DNA from: Vicinamibacterales bacterium | GTDB taxonomy: Bacteria; Acidobacteriota; Vicinamibacteria; Vicinamibacterales; 2-12-FULL-66-21 | NCBI GenBank assembly: GCA_035699745.1 | Contig: DASSPH010000015.1 | Location: forward strand, 1-64,000 | Direction: 5' to 3' | Length of the DNA stretch: 64,000 bases | In this document: positions 31,585 to 40,788 of the stretch, piece after piece | Position numbering within the stretch: position 1 is the first letter of the stretch | Layout: each line of letters opens with the position of its first letter | The notes under the pieces: generated by a model | What the model was told of the DNA's origin: nothing | Databases searched by the model: none | What the model saw: the letters and a program-made list of their open reading frames with translations, nothing else | Translations under genes and position numbers: made by a program

Positions 31585-33258
31585 ATGGAGGCAGCGCCCC
31601 GCACCATCGCGCGTGCGCGCGAGATCCTGCTCGTCTGCGCCGCCGGTTTCGTTCTCGCGCTGCTGATGACGTGGCCGCTCGCAACCGACCCGGGAGGGCT
31701 CGGCCGCACCCATCCCAACGACGCCGATGGACAGTTCGCGATCTGGAACGTCAGCTGGGTCGCGCGAACGCTCGTCGCCGATCCGCTGCGGCTGTTCGAC
31801 GCCAACATCTATCATCCGCACCGGCTGACGCTCGCCTACTCGGAGGCCAACATCCTCACCGGCGCGATCGGCCTGCCCGTCTACTGGCTGACGAGCAACC
31901 CGTGGCTGACGCTCAACGCGGTGATGATCGCCGGGTTCGCCTCAGCATACGCCGCCGCGTACTTCCTCATGCGGCACCTGACCGGCAGCCGTCCGGCATC
32001 GGCGGCGGCGGCGGTGCTCTACGCGTACTGCCCGTACGTGATGTCGCATCTCTCGCACATCCAGCTGCTGATGACCGGCGGGATCCCGCTCGCGCTGCTG
32101 CTGCTGCACCGCGTCGCAGATGACGTCACGAGCCCGAAGCTGGTCAGGCGCGGCGCCGCGCTCGGCGTCGCGCTCGCCGCGCAGGCGCTCACCTGCGCCT
32201 ATTACGGCATCTTCGCCGGCCTGGCCGTCGGCTACGCGGCGCTGGTCCTGGCCTGGTCGCGCCGCCTGTGGACCGCGCGCCGCTACTGGATCGCCGTCGC
32301 CGCCGGCGCGGCGACCTCCATCGCGCTCGTCCTCCCCTTCTTCATTCCATTCCTGGAGGTGCAGGAAGAGAGCGGATTCGCCCGCAGCCTCGAGGACACC
32401 GCGCGATGGGCGGCACGCCCGCACGGGTACCTCGTCTCCTCCGCCAATGCGCACCGCTGGCTGCTGGATCTGGTCCGCCGCTTCGGCCCCTGGGACGAGG
32501 TCCTGTTCCCAGGAATCCTCGCGCTCGTGCTCGGCGCCGCCGGTATCGTCCTCGCGCTCCGCCGCGCCGGGCGCGATCGCGAAACGGCGCTGCTCTATGG
32601 ATCGCTCGGGGCGCTCGCGTTCTGGGCGTCGTTCGGTCCCGACGCCGGCCTGTATCGCGTCCTCTATCACCTGCCGGCGTTCTCGTTCCTGCGCGCCCCG
32701 TCGCGGCTGGGACTGGTGGTCGTGCTCTGCCTCGCCCTGTTCGCGGCCTTCGCGCTGCGCGAGATCTTCGCGCGGCTCCCGGCGCGGGGCCGCGGCATCG
32801 CCGCCGCCGCCGCGCTCGCCGCCGCGGTTGCCGACCTCGCGATCGTCCCCTTGATCTGGTATCGCGCGCCGCAATTGCCGGCGGGCTACGCGGTGCTGGC
32901 GAAGAGTCCGCGCGGACCGCTCGCCGAGTTCCCGTTCTACGGCGAACGGATCGCCTTCCCGCTGCACGCGCAGTACATGCTGTTCTCCACGTCGCACTGG
33001 ATGCCGATGGTCAACGGCTACAGCGACGTGATTCCGAACGACTTCCGCCAGGCGGCGGTGGTGCTGGATGGCTTCCCGTCCGACGACGCCTTCAGGGTCC
33101 TGGCGCGGCGCCGCGTCCGCTACATCGCCGTGCACTGGGACATGTTCGCCGGACGGCAGGCGGAAATCCGCGCCCGGCTCGAGCCCTACCTGCGCAACCT
33201 GCGCACGCTCTCCGCCGACGACCGGATGACGCTCTTCGAAGTGGTGAGATATCCCTAG
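31585..33258 (+). CDS. Multi-span membrane protein, GT-C-like
   Basis: 557 aa with 10-12 membrane segments. The first loop has HPNDADGQFAIWNVSWVART with acidic residues in the GT-C catalytic position; later come SHLSHIQLLMTGGIPLALLL and FSFLRAPSRLGLVVVLCLAL, patterns seen in YfhO/GT-C-like membrane proteins. The C-terminal 120 residues are soluble (RRRVRYIAVHWDMFAGRQ). Probably acts in glycan modification or lipid-linked sugar transfer with its divergent neighbour; not provable here. Its TAG stop is shared, as CTAG, with the convergent transglycosylase gene. Confidence 0.7.
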   Translation: MEAAPRTIARAREILLVCAAGFVLALLMTWPLATDPGGLGRTHPNDADGQFAIWNVSWVARTLVADPLRLFDANIYHPHRLTLAYSEANILTGAIGLPVYWLTSNPWLTLNAVMIAGFASAYAAAYFLMRHLTGSRPASAAAAVLYAYCPYVMSHLSHIQLLMTGGIPLALLLLHRVADDVTSPKLVRRGAALGVALAAQALTCAYYGIFAGLAVGYAALVLAWSRRLWTARRYWIAVAAGAATSIALVLPFFIPFLEVQEESGFARSLEDTARWAARPHGYLVSSANAHRWLLDLVRRFGPWDEVLFPGILALVLGAAGIVLALRRAGRDRETALLYGSLGALAFWASFGPDAGLYRVLYHLPAFSFLRAPSRLGLVVVLCLALFAAFALREIFARLPARGRGIAAAAALAAAVADLAIVPLIWYRAPQLPAGYAVLAKSPRGPLAEFPFYGERIAFPLHAQYMLFSTSHWMPMVNGYSDVIPNDFRQAAVVLDGFPSDDAFRVLARRRVRYIAVHWDMFAGRQAEIRARLEPYLRNLRTLSADDRMTLFEVVRYP

Positions 33259-35528
33259 CCGCGCGGGGTGCGGCGGGTGCGGGTGCCCGGCTTCTTCGCC
33301 GGCGGCCTCGCCGGCGCCTTCTTCTTTGCCGCCGGCTTGGCCGCGGGACGCCGGACGCCCGGCTTGGAGGTCGTCAGCCGTTTCGACGCCGGCGCGGGGC
33401 GCGGCTTCACGTCACCGTCGCCGTACAGGCGCCGATAGTCCTCCGCCGTCCCGAGGATCCGCTTCACGTAGTTCTGGGTCTCGGGGAACGGGATGTCGTC
33501 GATGAACTCGTCTTCGTCCATCCCCGGCCGCTCCGCTTTCCACCGCACGACGCGGTTCTCCCCCGCGTTGTAGCTGGCGAGCGCGTAGTGCGTGCCGCCG
33601 AACTGCTGGACGAGCCGCTTGAAATAGAGCGTGCCCAGGCGGATGTTGGTCTCGCCGTGCGTCAGCATCGACGTCGAGAAGCGCCGGATGCCCAGCGCCG
33701 TCGCGAGGCGGCGGCCCGTGCTCGGCACGATCTGCATCAGCCCCCACGCGTTCGCCACCGACCGCGCGTTGGGATCGAACGTCGACTCCTGCGCGATCAG
33801 CGCGGCGACGACGTAGGGATCGAGCTCGTAGACGGCTGCCTGCCGCTTGATCGCGTCCCAGTAGGTCAGCGGGAAGATCACCTGGAGGATCTCGGCGGGC
33901 ACGGCGTCGCCGCCCGAGGTGAGGAACTGCGGGTACGCCCGCCGCATCAGCGTGATGGCGCGGCGCAGATCCCCCTTCTGATGGTGAATCCATGCGATGG
34001 TCGCTTCGATGGCCGGCGACGTGCCCCACGCCTTCTGCGCATATCTCAGCTCGTTCAACCCGTCGTCATACAGGCCGGCGGCCAGCAGGTGACGGATGAG
34101 CGTCCCCGTGGGCGGCGCCGGACTGGCGGGCGCGGGGCGCGCCGACTCCACGCTCGCCGGGACGATCGAGCCCTCATCCACCGCGGCGCTGGCCTTGAGC
34201 GGCGCGAGACGCGCGGCGGCGAGCCGGCCGTAGTAGGAGTGCAGGTAGTCGGCGTGGACGAGGCGCATCCGCGCTTCGGCGACCTGGCGCTGCCCGAGCT
34301 TCTCCCGCGCGCGCGCCGACCAGTAGAGCCACGGCGGCCGGTAGTCGGAGCGCGGGAACGCGGCGGCCGCGGCCTCGAACACGCGCACCGTCTCGTTGTA
34401 GTTGCGAGTGGTGTACGCCCACCAGCCGTACTTCCACGCGGCGCGCTCGGCATGCGGCCCGGAGGGGAACCGGGCGAACAGATCCTTGAAGGTCTGCGCC
34501 GCGAGGTCGTCCTGGTTGGTGACGATGTAGTGGGTGCCGAGATTGTTGAGCGCTTCGGACGACCACGAACTGTCGGGGAACTCCGCCGCCAGCTCGCGCG
34601 TCAGCCGGTTCGCCTCGTCGTCATCGCCGAGGCCGCGCAGCGCGCTCAGGTAGAAGAACTTCGCTTCGGCCCGGCGTGAGGCGCGATCGAGGTACGGACG
34701 CACGCCGTCACGGGCGTAGGCGTAGCGCTTGAGGAAGTACTCGCTTTCGGCGATGCGCAGATCGATGACTTCGCGATCGTCGCCGTCGGCCTGGCGCTGG
34801 ATGTCGAGCAGCAGCCCCTTCGCTTCGGCATAGCGCCTGGCGCCGAACAGAATCAGCGCGCGTCCGAGATCCGCCTTGTAGTCCTTGCGGACGATGAGAT
34901 CCTGCAGCGAGCCCATCGCCGTCGCCGCGGCGGTGGCGGCCTCGGACAGCGGGAACTCGTAATAGATCCGCACGTATGCTTCCGCGGCGCGCGCGCGGTT
35001 GCCGGCGGCCAGCGCGGCCCGCGCGAGGCGCGACAGGATGTCCTCCGGCGCAATCGATTTGTGCGACGCCAGCGTCTCGTAGATCGCGAGCGCCTCGCCG
35101 TGGTCCCCGCGGCTCTCGGCCGCCTCGGCCTTCCCGAGCAGCGCCGCGACCGAGAGCTGCCCTTCCGGCTGTTTCGCGAGCACGGCGTCGAACGCCTTCA
35201 CCGCGTCCGCGGCGTTGTTGAGCCGCAGCTGCGACGCGCCGACGTAATACTGCGCGTAGATCTCGAGCGGACCGCCGGCGGCGAGCGCCTGGCGCGCGGC
35301 GGCAAGCGCGGCGGCGTAATCGCCGGCGGCATACGCCGCGGCGGCGTCGGCCAGCCGCTGATTGCGCGGCGCTGATCGCTGCGCGGCCGCGGGCGCGAAC
35401 CAGTAGTCGTCGATGTTCTGAGGCAGCGACGCGTGCACGGTCGGACGGAGCGGCGTGTCGGCCGGCGGGGACTGCGCCGGCGTGTGCCAGCTCCCGAGCG
35501 CCAGCAGGAAGACGGGCACCAGGCGCAT
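33255..35528 (-). CDS. Soluble lytic murein transglycosylase (Slt70-like) with TPR-rich N-terminus
   Basis: 757 aa. Signal peptide (1-20), an alpha-helical TPR-type superhelix (about 60-520), then an SLT domain (about 545-690). LIAQESTFDPNARS holds the catalytic Glu; WGLMQIVPSTGRRLA and ALASYNAGENRVVRW are the other SLT motifs. A basic Lys/Arg/Pro/Ala tail of about 50 residues ends the protein and may bind wall polymers or DNA. It cleaves glycan strands with 1,6-anhydro ends in the periplasm. ATG at 35528 (TGATG, overlapping the upstream stop) is preferred to GTG at 35531. Confidence 0.9.
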   Translation of the reverse strand: MRLVPVFLLALGSWHTPAQSPPADTPLRPTVHASLPQNIDDYWFAPAAAQRSAPRNQRLADAAAAYAAGDYAAALAAARQALAAGGPLEIYAQYYVGASQLRLNNAADAVKAFDAVLAKQPEGQLSVAALLGKAEAAESRGDHGEALAIYETLASHKSIAPEDILSRLARAALAAGNRARAAEAYVRIYYEFPLSEAATAAATAMGSLQDLIVRKDYKADLGRALILFGARRYAEAKGLLLDIQRQADGDDREVIDLRIAESEYFLKRYAYARDGVRPYLDRASRRAEAKFFYLSALRGLGDDDEANRLTRELAAEFPDSSWSSEALNNLGTHYIVTNQDDLAAQTFKDLFARFPSGPHAERAAWKYGWWAYTTRNYNETVRVFEAAAAAFPRSDYRPPWLYWSARAREKLGQRQVAEARMRLVHADYLHSYYGRLAAARLAPLKASAAVDEGSIVPASVESARPAPASPAPPTGTLIRHLLAAGLYDDGLNELRYAQKAWGTSPAIEATIAWIHHQKGDLRRAITLMRRAYPQFLTSGGDAVPAEILQVIFPLTYWDAIKRQAAVYELDPYVVAALIAQESTFDPNARSVANAWGLMQIVPSTGRRLATALGIRRFSTSMLTHGETNIRLGTLYFKRLVQQFGGTHYALASYNAGENRVVRWKAERPGMDEDEFIDDIPFPETQNYVKRILGTAEDYRRLYGDGDVKPRPAPASKRLTTSKPGVRRPAAKPAAKKKAPARPPAKKPGTRTRRTPRG

Positions 35529-37819
35529 CACGCGTTTCCGAGCAGGGCCGGGTCGCCGTCGGCCAGGGTCTGGATCAGCTCCTGCTGGAAGAGGGTGTGC
35601 CGCGCGCCGAGCGCCGCCGGCACGCGCTCCTCGTACAACCGCTGCGCGCGATCAATCTCGGCGCGCAGGCGCTGGCGCAGATCCCGCTGTTGCCGGCCGG
35701 CGTGAACCGCGGCTTCGTTGTACAGCTTGATCTCGGAAATCAGCAGCCGCGCGAAGCGCCGCGCCCCTTGATCGTCGCCGAGGTCGTCGTCACCGGCGTC
35801 GCCGGGGGACACGCCGCGCAGCACGTCGAGCGTCCGCATGGCGGTGCGCAGCGCCACCACCGTCGACGCGTGCCGCGCGAGCAGCTCGACGGTGTCGAAC
35901 GCGCCGTCCGGCGCGGCCGTCCTGCCGCCGTCCGCGTACAACACGGCGACGGCGCGGCCGCCGATCATGATCGGCGCCGCGGCGCCGGCGCGATCCGCGG
36001 CCAGCCGCGCGAACGCGGGAGCCGCAGCCTGCGGCGACGAGCGGACCGTGGCTCCGGACCGGGCCGCACGCGCAAGCAGGTCGTCGCCGTCGATCGGCGC
36101 GTCGACGCTGCGCATCTCCGCGTCGGGAATGCCGACGCCTTTCCATGGCTTCAGCCGGTCCCCTTCGATGAGGAACACCGCGGCCCGGCCCGCGATGGTC
36201 GCGGCGTTCGCCAGGAGCGTGTCGAGCGTCTGCGACAGACTGCGCGTGGCGTCCAGCGCGCGGAGGCCCGCGACGACGCGTGCGAACGCGGCCGCGGCGA
36301 CGGCGGCATCCCCGGGCGCCGGACCGCCCGAGGCCGCGGCGGCTTCCCGCGCGGCGGCGATTTCGCCGTGCAGCCGCTCCGCGAGGTCGTGCGAGTCGCT
36401 CTGCAGACTGGCGTGCGCGGCTTCGAGCTCCGCCGCCCGCGCCCGCTCGGTGTCGAGCTCCTCCTGCAGCCGCGCGCGCTCGCTGTCGAATTCATTCTGC
36501 ACGCGGCGGCGATCGGACTCGCGCTCCAGCTCCGCGCTTCGCCTGGTCGCGGCGATCGCCTGCTCGATCCGCTGATCCACTTCGCCGCGCACGCTGTCTT
36601 CGCGGGCGCCGAGCTGCTGCTCCAGTTCGGTGCGGACCGCCTGTTCGCGCGCCTGCGCCTGCTGTTCGAGCTCGGCGCGCAGCGTCTCCTCGCGCGCCTG
36701 CGCCTGCTGTTCGAGCTCGGCGCGCAGCGTCTCTTCGCGCGCCTGCGCCTGCTGTTCGAGTTCGGCGCGCAGCGCCTGTTCGCGGGCCTGCGCCTGCTGT
36801 TCGAGTTCGGCGCGCAGCCCCTGTTCGCGGGCCGGCGCCTGTTGCTCGAGTTCGGCGCGCAGCGCCTGCTCCTGCGCCTGCGCCTGCTGCGTGAGCTCCG
36901 CGCGCAGCTGCTCGCGTGCCTGCTGCGCCTCGCGCTCGACCTCGGTGCGAACCGCCTGCTCGCGCGCCTGGATCTGCTGGGCCAGCTCGGCACGCAGCGA
37001 CTGTTCCCTCGCCGTCTGCTGCTCCAGGTCGGCGCGCAGCATCAGCTCGCGGGCCCGGGCCTGTTCGAGCTCGGCGCGCTGCGCCTGCTCGCGCGCCTCT
37101 GCCTGCTGTTCGAGCTCGCGGCGGACCACGTCTTCGCGAGCCTGCAGCTGACGATCGAATTCCTGACGCAGGCTCCGCTCGCGGGCGTCCGCCTCCTCGC
37201 GCATGTCGCGGCGGACCGCTTCTTCACGCGCGCGCGCCTGCTGCTCGAGATCGCGCCGGAGCGCCTCGTCCCGCGCGTGCTGCTGCTGCTCGGCCTCCTG
37301 ACGCGCCGCCTGCACGCGCGCCTCGACGTGCTCGCTGAACTCGCGGCGCAGCTCCTGCTCCCGCGCCTCCAGCGTCTGCTCGAACTCGCGCCGCGCCGCC
37401 GCTTCCTGCGCCGCGTAGTGCTGCTCGAACTCGCGGCGCAGCGTCGATTCGCGCGCCTCGTGCTGGACGGCCGCCAGATCGAGCGCGCGCTGCTCCGCCT
37501 CGGCCCGCACCGCCGAGAGCTGCGCGTTCAGCTGCTGGTCGTATTGATCGCGGAGCTGGCGCTCCCGCTCGTCGCGCTCGATCGCCGCCGCCTCGAGGGC
37601 CTGCTGATAGCTCTCGGCCCTGGCTGCCGCGACCTGCCCCTCGTGCCGGACGTCCCACTCGGCCCGCGCCTGGGCGACGCGGGCGCCGAGCTCCTTCATG
37701 GCCTCCTCGGTCGCCTCCCGGCGCGCCTGGGCGATGGCGGACTCGTAGTACTTCTTCAGCGTCGCGAGCTGCTGATCGAGCGCACCGCGGAGCTGATTCT
37801 GGAGCTCGTCCAGTGACAT
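35528..37819 (-). CDS. Long coiled-coil protein with C-terminal GAF domain
   Basis: 763 aa. Residues about 1-490 form one coiled coil built from Arg/Glu/Gln/Ala-rich segments, including near-identical 15-residue units LRAELEQQAQAREET (about 300-405). A GAF-like domain follows (about 505-655: RAAVFLIEGDRLKPWKGVGI, AAPIMIGGRAVAVLYADGG). The last 85 residues (ARRFARLLISEIKLYNEAAV) form a separate helical domain. No membrane segment or catalytic motif. The architecture suggests a cytoplasmic scaffold or sensor. It is translationally coupled to the transglycosylase gene (1-bp overlap). Confidence 0.75.
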   Translation of the reverse strand: MSLDELQNQLRGALDQQLATLKKYYESAIAQARREATEEAMKELGARVAQARAEWDVRHEGQVAAARAESYQQALEAAAIERDERERQLRDQYDQQLNAQLSAVRAEAEQRALDLAAVQHEARESTLRREFEQHYAAQEAAARREFEQTLEAREQELRREFSEHVEARVQAARQEAEQQQHARDEALRRDLEQQARAREEAVRRDMREEADARERSLRQEFDRQLQAREDVVRRELEQQAEAREQAQRAELEQARARELMLRADLEQQTAREQSLRAELAQQIQAREQAVRTEVEREAQQAREQLRAELTQQAQAQEQALRAELEQQAPAREQGLRAELEQQAQAREQALRAELEQQAQAREETLRAELEQQAQAREETLRAELEQQAQAREQAVRTELEQQLGAREDSVRGEVDQRIEQAIAATRRSAELERESDRRRVQNEFDSERARLQEELDTERARAAELEAAHASLQSDSHDLAERLHGEIAAAREAAAASGGPAPGDAAVAAAAFARVVAGLRALDATRSLSQTLDTLLANAATIAGRAAVFLIEGDRLKPWKGVGIPDAEMRSVDAPIDGDDLLARAARSGATVRSSPQAAAPAFARLAADRAGAAAPIMIGGRAVAVLYADGGRTAAPDGAFDTVELLARHASTVVALRTAMRTLDVLRGVSPGDAGDDDLGDDQGARRFARLLISEIKLYNEAAVHAGRQQRDLRQRLRAEIDRAQRLYEERVPAALGARHTLFQQELIQTLADGDPALLGNA
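36604..36915 (-). repeat. 45-bp in-gene tandem repeats in the coiled-coil gene
   Basis: About six or seven consecutive 45-bp units each encode a 15-residue coiled-coil segment; several are almost identical in DNA, pointing to recent expansion. Confidence 0.85.
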
Positions 37820-37847
37820 GAGAGCCGTATTATCGCATGGGGTTACG

Positions 37848-37935
37848 GGGATCGGGCCATCGAGTCATCGGGCGATCGGGTGATCGGGTGATCGGGTGAT
37901 CGGGTGATCGGGTGATCGGGCCATCGGGTGAGCGG
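37848..37935. repeat. 8-bp tandem repeat (TGATCGGG) between genes
   Basis: Around ten copies of TGATCGGG, the outer ones varied (CCATCGGG, CGATCGGG, TCATCGGG). It lies in the 140-bp gap upstream of the coiled-coil gene and contains many GATC sites. No spacer structure. Confidence 0.9.
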
Positions 37936-37959
37936 GGGATCGAGCGGCAGGCGGGCCCT

Positions 37960-38715
37960 CTATCCGTATCCGCCGCTGCTGGTCTGCTCGGGGATGGCGG
38001 AGCCGAATCCGCCGACGTTGCTGCGCCGGAGGCCCAGGAGCGCGATCGTAGCGTACCACGCCAGGCGGAAGCCGGAGGGCCTGGGGATCGAGACGCCCTC
38101 CGCAACCTGGCCGGTCGTGATGTCCGCGGTCCGGATCGTCATCCCGTGGTCCTGCCAGCGGCGGAGCACGTGCGCCAGATCCGGCGGCACGGACGACGGG
38201 CCGCGCTGCAGCAGCGTCGCACTGCGGAACCCCCGGCTCACGAGCAGCGCGCCGGAGGGAAAATCCTGCGGCAGCGCGACCCAGCGGTTGTCGTAGACGC
38301 CGGGCTTCAGCGTCACCCCGGCCCCGCGGCGGCGCGAATCGAGGAGGAACGCCGGCGTCGAGGCGGGTGCAATCGTGCGCAGTTTCAACGACTCCGCGCC
38401 CGCGACGAGCGCGCGGGCGATCGGCTGCACGTCGATCGCCGGCGACGGTCCCGACGTGCCGTTGAACAACGGCACCGGGCAGAATCCGCGCTGGGCGAGG
38501 AGCAGCCCCGCCTGAACCGATTCGGCGCCGGGCAGATCGACGATCACGATTGACGACGAGTCGATCGTCAGCGGCAGCCGGAGATCGGCAACGGGAGCGG
38601 CCGACGCCGGCGCCTGCGCCGCGTTGACGAACGCGACCGGCTTCGCCCATTCCGACCACGGCACGCCAGCCGGCGTCCACGCGGCGAACGTCTGCTCGTC
38701 GACTTCCCAGTTCAC
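37960..38715 (-). CDS. Uncharacterised 251-aa protein of the ATP-grasp/DUF350 cassette
   Basis: I do not recognise the family. Residues about 50-65 (DSSSIVIVDLPGAESVQAGL) look like a Rossmann-type strand and turn; QRGFCPVPLFNGTSG, FLLDSRRRGAG, YDNRWVALPQDFPSGALL and DLAHVLRRWQDHGMTI appear as compact motifs. A single hydrophobic helix (about 213-228) is followed by a Ser/Gly-rich tail ending SSGGYG. It is the last gene of a three-gene set with the ATP-grasp enzyme 61 bp upstream. It may be the ligase's substrate or partner; that is a guess. Confidence 0.7.
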   Translation of the reverse strand: MNWEVDEQTFAAWTPAGVPWSEWAKPVAFVNAAQAPASAAPVADLRLPLTIDSSSIVIVDLPGAESVQAGLLLAQRGFCPVPLFNGTSGPSPAIDVQPIARALVAGAESLKLRTIAPASTPAFLLDSRRRGAGVTLKPGVYDNRWVALPQDFPSGALLVSRGFRSATLLQRGPSSVPPDLAHVLRRWQDHGMTIRTADITTGQVAEGVSIPRPSGFRLAWYATIALLGLRRSNVGGFGSAIPEQTSSGGYG

Positions 38716-38776
38716 CAGATCACCTCGTCTGAGCGGTTCGCTGGCCGCTCACCGCCATCCGCCTGCCGCTTTGCTC

Positions 38777-39991
38777 TTACGCTGCCAGGACTGCGGCGTC
38801 CGCGGCGCGCGCGTCGACGAGCGGCACTGTCGCGAGCCGGCCGTACGCACCGACGACCCGACCGTCGAGCGTATAGACGCCGAGACAGGGAAACACCGCG
38901 CGGCCGCCGATCTCGACCGGGAGCGCGCGAAACCGACGCTGCGCGATCCAGCGGCCCGGCCACCAGTGGGCCTGCCGTCGAATCCGGCGCAGCTCCGCGG
39001 CGCCGATCGCGTCCGGCATGCCGATCCCCTCCCCCACGCGGCCGAAGGCCGGCTTCACGATCCACTCGTCCGACGTGCGCCACGGGGCCTCCCGCGGATC
39101 GCGGGTCTCGGGCAGGTGCGCGCGCCACGCCGGCAGCCGCGTCTGCAGGCGATCCCACACCAGCGGAAAACGCTTGCTCTGCGTCAGGATCGCGGCGGCC
39201 GGGTTGCTGAGCGGCGTGCGCGATCCGGCAAACAGCATCGGCCATCCGCACGCGCCGGGCAGGTCGCCGAGCCACTCCGCCGGGAAGAACCGCACGACCG
39301 CGTCGAGCGGTCCCTGGAACCAGGCGCTGTCCAGATGCACGCGTCCGTCGCGCCACCGCAAGTGGCTCGGGCTCGCGAGCTGGGGGGCGACGCCCCGGGC
39401 CTCGAGCCGCCGGGCGACGAAGGACATCATCTGCTGGTCGTCACTGAACGCGGTGGCGTGGACGAGCGCGACCGTCGACCGCGGACCCGCACCGGCGGCG
39501 ATGGCCCTGGCGTAGGCGTCGGCCGGATCGCCGACCGGCACGGCCCACGCGTAGTGCGGTCCGATCGCCGCCGGCAGGCCGGAGGCTTCGTTCAGCCCGC
39601 CAGGGACGTCGCAGTTCGCCTCCGAAATGCGCCAGCCGTCGGTGGTGAAGTGAAAATCGAACCGCACGATCCGCGCCACACCGGCCGACGGCCCGAGCCG
39701 GCCGATCCGCCGCAGCGCCCGCCTCGCCGCACGCGGCACGCCCAGCACGCGATGCAGCTCAGGACGATCGATCAGCTCGCGTTCGGCCGCGAGCGTCTCG
39801 TTCGCGAGCGTCTCCGCGAGCCGGACGACGGCGTCCCAGGCGGCCCGCGTAATCACCAGCGGCGTTCGCGCGATGACACACACGTCGCCCACCTGCGGAT
39901 CCCACTTGCAGCAGTCGACGATGGCGCGCCGGCGCACGTCTGCAAACGCCGCGGACGCCAGCGGTTCGACCGGCACCCACGGTCCGCTCAT
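38777..39991 (-). CDS. Glutathionylspermidine-synthase-like ATP-grasp ligase
   Basis: 404 aa. Motifs of the GSP-synthase ATP-grasp fold: VRFDFHFTTDGWRISEANCD (substrate and metal region), WIVKPAFGRVGEGIGM (ATP-binding Lys and glycine loop), VFPCLGVYTLDGRVVGAYGR (late metal-binding and catalytic strand). It lacks the N-terminal amidase domain of E. coli Gsp. Such stand-alone enzymes (YgiC/YjfC group) are predicted to ligate amines or amino acids to peptides or proteins. Start MSGPWVPVEP at 39991 overlaps the upstream stop by ATGA. Neighbours are a DUF350-like membrane protein and an unknown protein. Confidence 0.82.
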   Translation of the reverse strand: MSGPWVPVEPLASAAFADVRRRAIVDCCKWDPQVGDVCVIARTPLVITRAAWDAVVRLAETLANETLAAERELIDRPELHRVLGVPRAARRALRRIGRLGPSAGVARIVRFDFHFTTDGWRISEANCDVPGGLNEASGLPAAIGPHYAWAVPVGDPADAYARAIAAGAGPRSTVALVHATAFSDDQQMMSFVARRLEARGVAPQLASPSHLRWRDGRVHLDSAWFQGPLDAVVRFFPAEWLGDLPGACGWPMLFAGSRTPLSNPAAAILTQSKRFPLVWDRLQTRLPAWRAHLPETRDPREAPWRTSDEWIVKPAFGRVGEGIGMPDAIGAAELRRIRRQAHWWPGRWIAQRRFRALPVEIGGRAVFPCLGVYTLDGRVVGAYGRLATVPLVDARAADAAVLAA

Positions 39992-40788
39992 GGCGGCCAC
40001 TCCATCGACCACACCGCGGCCGCCGCCATCGCGAGATACAGCACCGCCGGGACGGCGCCGTGCAGCACCAGCGATCCGCGCGGACGCTGCGCCGTCGGCC
40101 GCGCGGTCCGTTCGACGGCGATCGCGATCGCGAGAATGATGCCCACCGCCGGCAGGACGCCGGCGACGTCCGTCAGCGTGTCGCCCGCGGAGTACCAGTC
40201 GCCGGCGGCGCCGCGGCCGAGCAGCAGACCGATCGCCGCCAGGAACCCGCCGGCGCGGAGCCCGGCGGCCGGGTCGCGGTCGATCGTCACCGCGTCCATC
40301 GCCGGACTGAATTGCGCGAGCAGCAGCCACGCGGCGAACCAGCACGCGCTGGCCAGGCCGCTCGAGAACACCACCACCCACCAGCCCGGGCCGTCCCCGA
40401 TGTTGCCGCCGGCATAACACAAGGTCAGCCCGGCGAACGCGCCCGCCATCGCGGCAATCGCCGCCCCGTTCCTGCGCTCGATCAGATCGTCGCGCACGCT
40501 GAGGCCGGCGAACGCAAAGAACCGCTCGCCGATCCGCAGCCACGCCAGCCCCAGCACGCCGTACATGAACTGGTATTCGGGGGCGTCGACGACGTCGAAC
40601 GAGGCGAGGGTCTCGAGGACGAGCAGGATGGCGACGCCGCACACCGACACGGCGACGGTGAGCGCCTGGACGCCCCGCGCACCGGGGCGCAGCGGCGACA
40701 GCCGCGCCCAGAACAGGAAGGTCATCGTCCACCACAGAGGACCGGCGGCCAGCGCGATCAGGGTGACGACAATCTCGTCTGCCGACAT
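39988..40788 (-). CDS. DUF350-like multi-span membrane protein
   Basis: 266 aa with about seven or eight membrane segments. Two internal stretches, RNGAAIAAMAGAFAGLTLCY and DPAAGLRAGGFLAAIGLLLG, resemble the repeated 'N-AAA---G---G' pattern of DUF350 (YjfL) proteins, and a third unit is possible near the N-terminus. DUF350 genes occur with YjfC-type ATP-grasp enzymes in many bacteria. Here the pair overlaps by ATGA, so they are co-translated. The family match was made by eye and is uncertain; the membrane topology is clear. Confidence 0.65.
   Translation of the reverse strand: MSADEIVVTLIALAAGPLWWTMTFLFWARLSPLRPGARGVQALTVAVSVCGVAILLVLETLASFDVVDAPEYQFMYGVLGLAWLRIGERFFAFAGLSVRDDLIERRNGAAIAAMAGAFAGLTLCYAGGNIGDGPGWWVVVFSSGLASACWFAAWLLLAQFSPAMDAVTIDRDPAAGLRAGGFLAAIGLLLGRGAAGDWYSAGDTLTDVAGVLPAVGIILAIAIAVERTARPTAQRPRGSLVLHGAVPAVLYLAMAAAAVWSMEWPP

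Follow-up and report, generated by a model that had tools for sequence, protein, structure and literature searches.

E. coli Gss (GspSA) joins the C-terminal glycine carboxylate of glutathione to spermidine. The products of two other E. coli genes, ygiC and yjfC, are named peptide--spermidine ligases in RefSeq, are described as peptide-spermidine ligases by Pederick et al. 2023 (cited in PMC12568646) and, according to a title cited in the same article, accept peptides in vitro; no native substrate of either enzyme is named in the portion of the literature covered. Both genes are neighbours of a gene for a DUF1190 protein, ygiB and yjfM, respectively. The ygiBC pair is without a DUF350 gene, and yjfIJKLMC encodes the DUF350 protein YjfL, the DUF1190 protein YjfM and the ligase YjfC. 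In PMC11237479, DUF350 proteins of the YjfL family are placed together with a lipoprotein and an ATP-grasp peptide ligase related to GSPS, and a connection to polyamines is drawn.

The window analysed here, a stretch of 64,000 nucleotides from a Vicinamibacterales bacterium, carries three consecutive genes on its minus strand that recall these systems. Gene A (39988–40788) encodes an integral membrane protein of 266 aa, gene B (38777–39991) a stand-alone ATP-grasp ligase of the GSP_synth type of 404 aa, and gene C (37960–38715) a protein of 251 aa belonging to an uncatalogued family. Genes A and B are joined by an ATGA overlap (39988–39991), and 61 bp separate the stop codon of gene B from the start codon of gene C, a GTG at 38715; a sequence-only reading of the same DNA had given the same ORF positions, overlap and spacing. 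The three genes form a self-contained module. We compared the flanks of 26 loci all-against-all. The three genes occur with unchanged order in 20 complete loci, so that the cassette cannot be a chance assembly.

Judged by sequence, the cassette parallels yjfL-yjfM-yjfC and the PspA-linked DUF350/ATP-grasp/DUF1190 operons of PMC11237479, but its partner protein is unrelated, its ligase belongs to a clade of its own, and PspA and the other yjf genes are lacking. Like yjfIJKLMC, the cassette brings together genes for a membrane protein of the DUF350 type, an ATP-grasp ligase of the GSP_synth type and a partner with a GG[FY]G...G tail. However, YjfL has 132 aa whereas the gene A product has 266 aa and eight helices, YjfC and the gene B ligase are only distantly related, and genes for PspA, DUF2170 and DUF2491 do not recur at the cassette in the 26 flanks. 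Moreover, YjfM is a DUF1190 protein with a lipoprotein-like N-terminus, whereas gene C encodes an alpha/beta domain without signal peptide, on an unrelated scaffold. The ygiBC pair also places an RGGFG-tailed partner with a Gly-Gly end (YgiB) beside a GSP_synth ligase (YgiC), but its partner scaffold is again unrelated, it has no DUF350 gene, and YgiC has a RED motif that is missing from the gene B clade. With the operons of PMC11237479 the cassette shares the combination of DUF350 protein and GSPS-related ligase; the accessible part of that article does not mention the gene C family, the PspA-free three-gene form or the shared tail.

Taken alone, the gene A protein matches DUF350 (PF03994) with an E-value of 0.0017 and 18.9 bits, under the 26-bit cut-off. 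The same profile is matched by all ten gene A family members searched, with a best E-value of 1.2e-9, and at divergent loci the membrane protein encoded upstream clearly exceeds the cut-off (1e-12 to 1e-36), indicating that the partnership with DUF350 proteins is general. These family and divergent-locus matches uphold the earlier assignment of gene A to a DUF350 relative, here a divergent one of the YjfL type, and none of them pointed to an unrelated family. The AlphaFold2 model of gene A has eight long helices (pLDDT 92.7), one of the two helix numbers, four or eight, given for DUF350 membrane proteins in PMC11237479. A fold search with this protein retrieved no solved fold below E 0.3.

Gene B matches GSP_synth (PF03738) in Pfam with an E-value of 1.4e-10 and 41.4 bits, above the curated cut-off of 29.3, which confirms its earlier placement among GSP_synth ATP-grasp enzymes, and it was the sole copy found when the genome was searched with GSP_synth (39.7 bits). 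Sequence searches with a profile of the gene B family retrieve E. coli YgiC (structure 7uk8) and the GspSA structures. Alignment with GspSA, YgiC and YjfC showed that gene B, like these members of the ATP-grasp superfamily, retains R110, D112, E124 and N126 (residues 110–126, encoded at 39614–39664 on the minus strand) as well as K313 and R318 of the ATP-grasp K..GR motif (39038–39055, minus strand). The equivalents in GspSA are R316, D318, E330, N332, K533 and R538, which bind metal, ATP and phosphate; the six residues are also invariant in the ligase family alignment. Gene B has an acidic pair, D184/D185, where GspSA carries two glutamates.

While the core catalytic residues stay, the acceptor site of gene B differs. 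The RED motif that follows the last conserved arginine is absent, the corresponding residues being RLA in gene B, R[LVIM][AGS] in its relatives and RE[DSC] in YgiC-type enzymes, and the residue equivalent to GspSA D610 is not conserved in the gene B clade. Since the core is kept and these two features are lost, gene B is probably an active carboxylate-amine ligase, and the amine used by its clade may differ from spermidine. In contrast to GspSA, gene B stands alone, without an amidase domain, and its presumed substrate is a protein instead of glutathione. In a midpoint-rooted maximum-likelihood tree of the ligases, YgiC, YjfC and the YgiC-like sequences make up one clade (support 100/100), and gene B with its relatives falls outside it, in the other.

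Gene C had been described in the sequence-only reading as a protein of no known family, and no match to it was found in Pfam, DUF1190 included, nor in NCBIfam, PHROGs or PADLOC; it defines a protein family absent from these four collections. In its AlphaFold2 model (pLDDT 86), an alpha/beta domain leads into a short helix (residues 215–226) and a disordered tail. This helix, previously noted as a hydrophobic one, comprises about 12 residues, fewer than a normal transmembrane span requires. Structure searches yielded no Foldseek match at E ≤ 0.001, and the best VIA-align hits (Z 4.3) were unrelated Rossmann-like proteins. With no clear match among solved folds, a function cannot be proposed from the fold. 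Weak profile matches to orotidine decarboxylase (E 0.06 and above) were taken as chance.

The Ser/Gly-rich tail noted earlier is present, and turned out to be the most conserved part of the protein. Among 22 gene C sequences of the closer clade, an alignment that includes two sequences with 26–28% identity to the window protein, GGFG near the C-terminus is the sole run of residues that never varies; W20, D126, R129, D142, N143 and D179 are the other invariant positions. In the close clade the residues flanking GGFG are conserved too (LRRNSAGGFGxxIPxxS). In the window protein the tail spans residues 235–251 (37963–38013, minus strand), reads GGFGSAIPEQTSSGGYG and ends with glycine. When the set is widened to 37 clusters with less than 60% identity, the tail takes the forms GGFG, GS[FW]GR, GGSW and DG[ST]FG, and the last residue is Gly in 30 clusters, Ser in 4, Ala in 2 and His in 1. 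Glycine is the last residue in 10% of background ORFs, a comparison for which a binomial value is indicative only, as the clusters share descent and the background includes spurious ORFs. A search of the genome itself for the GGFG codon pattern proved unspecific on its own and was of no use.

The same kind of C-terminus, with GG[FY]G and a final glycine, is found in the DUF1190 proteins YgiB, which ends in TRGGFGES...SRSMGG, and YjfM, which ends in SRGGYGRSSSARGHWGG (RGGYG...WGG). For 29 of 31 YgiC-like genes in other genomes, a neighbouring gene carries GG[FY]G within its last 60 residues; one of the two exceptions lies at a contig end and the other has a neighbour with a variant tail. Outside such partners, GG[FY]G tails were counted in 8 of about 2,620 ORFs of the flanks and the window. 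No homology was detected between the core of gene C and the YgiB-type partners, with an hhalign probability of 0.3% both with and without the tail. As the two partner scaffolds are without detectable homology, and yet share this kind of tail and this kind of ligase neighbour, the tail points to shared recognition and may be the element that the ligases recognise. At loci L004–L026, most partners of YgiC-like ligases from the same phylum end in Gly-Glu instead of Gly-Gly, and the partners have no significant DUF1190 score.

The ligase and the third gene were not found in the 60 nearest genomes, which suggests that the cassette arrived separately. A scan of genome contigs with gene B found nine relatives, whose record titles name Verrucomicrobia, Holophagales, Nostoc, Planctomycetaceae, Phycisphaerales, Deltaproteobacteria, Gemmataceae and Sumerlaeia. 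Wherever one of these loci is complete, its three genes are adjacent and keep their order, with protein identities of 31–63%. Cassette loci span at least six phyla with unchanged gene order; several of the records are metagenome bins in which individual phylum assignments may err, but the spread as a whole is not a binning error. Phyla are intermixed in the ligase tree, where many inner forks are poorly supported, and this pattern would fit horizontal transfer of the whole module. A reading as mobile element or defence system was considered and dropped, since comparisons with plasmids, phages, viral contigs, PHROGs and PADLOC gave no match. The Verrucomicrobia cassette is followed directly downstream by an ORF assigned by eye as REP-associated-transposase-like (L034, 8115–9290).

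We then looked at how faithfully the ligase and the third protein accompany each other. In 392 Planctomycetota genomes, two of which had contributed to the search profiles, the gene C profile matched 22 genomes, and the ligase was directly upstream in 21. The remaining match (L067, 1501–1656) is a remnant consisting of the last 52 codons of gene C, including the GGFG tail, without ligase or membrane protein gene. Reciprocally, the ligase profile gave 22 strong matches in the same genomes and the third gene was found by profile in 21 of them; in the other one (L110) it was identified by inspection, with the tail TSGGSWFRSTGSRGYHSS. Full-length third genes without this type of ligase numbered zero. 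The two proteins are thus reciprocal in this sample with the L067 remnant as sole exception (Fisher p 4e-35, a value that overstates the certainty by counting related genomes as independent), and the 251-aa family, whose frequent occurrence apart from the ligase would have counted against the sequence-only reading, was almost never encountered without it. In 292 cyanobacterial genomes the family was found only in Nostoc sp. 106C. The association does not depend on one operon, since at L149 (1692–3965) and L159 (1745–3844) relatives of the third protein are encoded next to the ligase but on the other strand. The 26 flanks were also examined for a recurrent fourth partner, and none was seen in the close clade; the exceptions are an upstream gene common to the close relatives L076, L077 and L079, and, in the divergent group, a fourth gene after the third one (L165, 2338–3003; L071, 601–1149; L088, 7179–8093). 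The L165 gene has a weak DUF1517 match (E 0.00049).

These data lead us to consider it reasonably likely that the cassette is a dedicated protein-modification module, in which the ligase acts on the third protein as its cognate substrate and joins the tail of this protein to an amine. The sequence-only reading had seen in the third protein an acceptor or an adaptor for the ligase; near-obligate co-occurrence supports this pair of roles taken together, and the resemblance of the Gly-Gly-Phe-Gly tail to those of YgiB and YjfM makes ligase-dependent modification probable. The proposed chemistry, an amine ligation, would fit by analogy the E. coli homologues described as peptide-spermidine ligases. 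The ligase would bind the flexible GGFG tail and use ATP to convert a tail carboxylate into an acyl phosphate, most likely at the C-terminal glycine, as in the glutathione glycine used by GspSA. The activated tail would be joined to an amine, most plausibly a polyamine because E. coli YgiC and YjfC can use polyamines with peptides, and possibly another amine; the loss of the RED motif and of the D610-like residue suggests that it may not be spermidine. The DUF350 membrane protein would act in the same pathway, perhaps in retaining the modified protein at the membrane, or perhaps as a supplier or sensor of the amine. As some YgiC-like partners end in Glu or Ser, the reacting group may instead be a side-chain carboxylate. 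In this scheme residues 235–251 of gene C are proposed to be both recognition and modification tag.

Tails rich in Gly and Ser are common as low-complexity sequence, and the tail could be a docking element only. Against the role of a bare substrate, gene C has a well-ordered conserved domain with the invariant residues D126, R129, D142 and N143. The third protein might thus be an adaptor or regulator whose GGFG tail docks on the ligase and activates or localises it, the substrate being another peptide or a small molecule. The conserved folded domain of the model, the distance of its invariant polar residues from the tail, the docking-motif-like conservation next to GGFG and the in vitro acceptance of peptides by YgiC and YjfC (title cited in PMC12568646) all agree with such a role. 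We nevertheless regard it as unlikely, as no other recurrent neighbour in the 26 flanks could provide the substrate or use the product, and docking alone poorly explains a final glycine conserved at varying distances from GGFG.

The predicted alpha/beta fold and the same four invariant residues could also belong to a Rossmann-like enzyme that works ahead of the ligase or after it, for instance in preparing the amine or removing it again, with the tail as a mere tether; E. coli GspSA offers a precedent for the pairing of a synthetase with an opposing amidase. This appears quite improbable: in the 22-sequence alignment none of the invariant positions is a Cys, Ser or His able to serve as nucleophile, solved folds gave no clear match, and such a domain is missing from YgiB and YjfM, which are small proteins of low complexity, so that an enzyme cannot be a general requirement. 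Even less probable is a scaffold in the style of peptide-aminoacyl-tRNA ligases, whose C-terminus would receive an amine or amino acid that is then altered and cut off as a small molecule. Extension of the C-terminus of scaffold peptides by ligases is known (PMC10979984 and PMC11962472), but tailoring enzymes, peptidases and exporters are not among the recurrent neighbours of the cassette in the 26 loci, the third protein is a folded protein of 250 aa and no short peptide, and the ligase is of the GSP_synth type.

More tentatively, with chances that we place a little short of even, the GG-aromatic-G C-terminal tail may be a general tag for GSP_synth-type ligases, for which at least two unrelated scaffolds would have been recruited as dedicated substrates whose tails are joined to an amine. 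If so, E. coli YgiC and YjfC would have their own neighbours, YgiB and YjfM, as native substrates. With a tail common to two unrelated partner families, each ligase gains a candidate substrate, and a short motif becomes available for testing. The modification would then be a C-terminal amine modification of proteins that occurs in many phyla and goes together with membrane proteins of the DUF350 type.

The genes downstream of the cassette lie on the same strand, beginning with a GAF/coiled-coil gene (35528–37819) at a distance of 140 bp and continuing with an Slt-type lytic transglycosylase with TPR repeats (33255–35531). The sequence-only reading had suggested that they may link the cassette to the envelope. 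That they form a larger envelope module with it now seems very improbable, as neither gene stands beside the cassette in any of the 26 other loci, a tandem array separates the cassette from the GAF/coiled-coil gene, and the lack of the cassette in relatives suggests its separate arrival. In the array (37846–37942), an 8-bp unit (CGGGTGAT) occurs about 12 times in succession. The Slt-type protein scores 205 bits against the NCBIfam flagellar assembly lytic transglycosylase, under the cut-off of 234. The coiled-coil part of the GAF gene contains internal tandem repeats of 45 bp and 90 bp, at positions 37018–37461.
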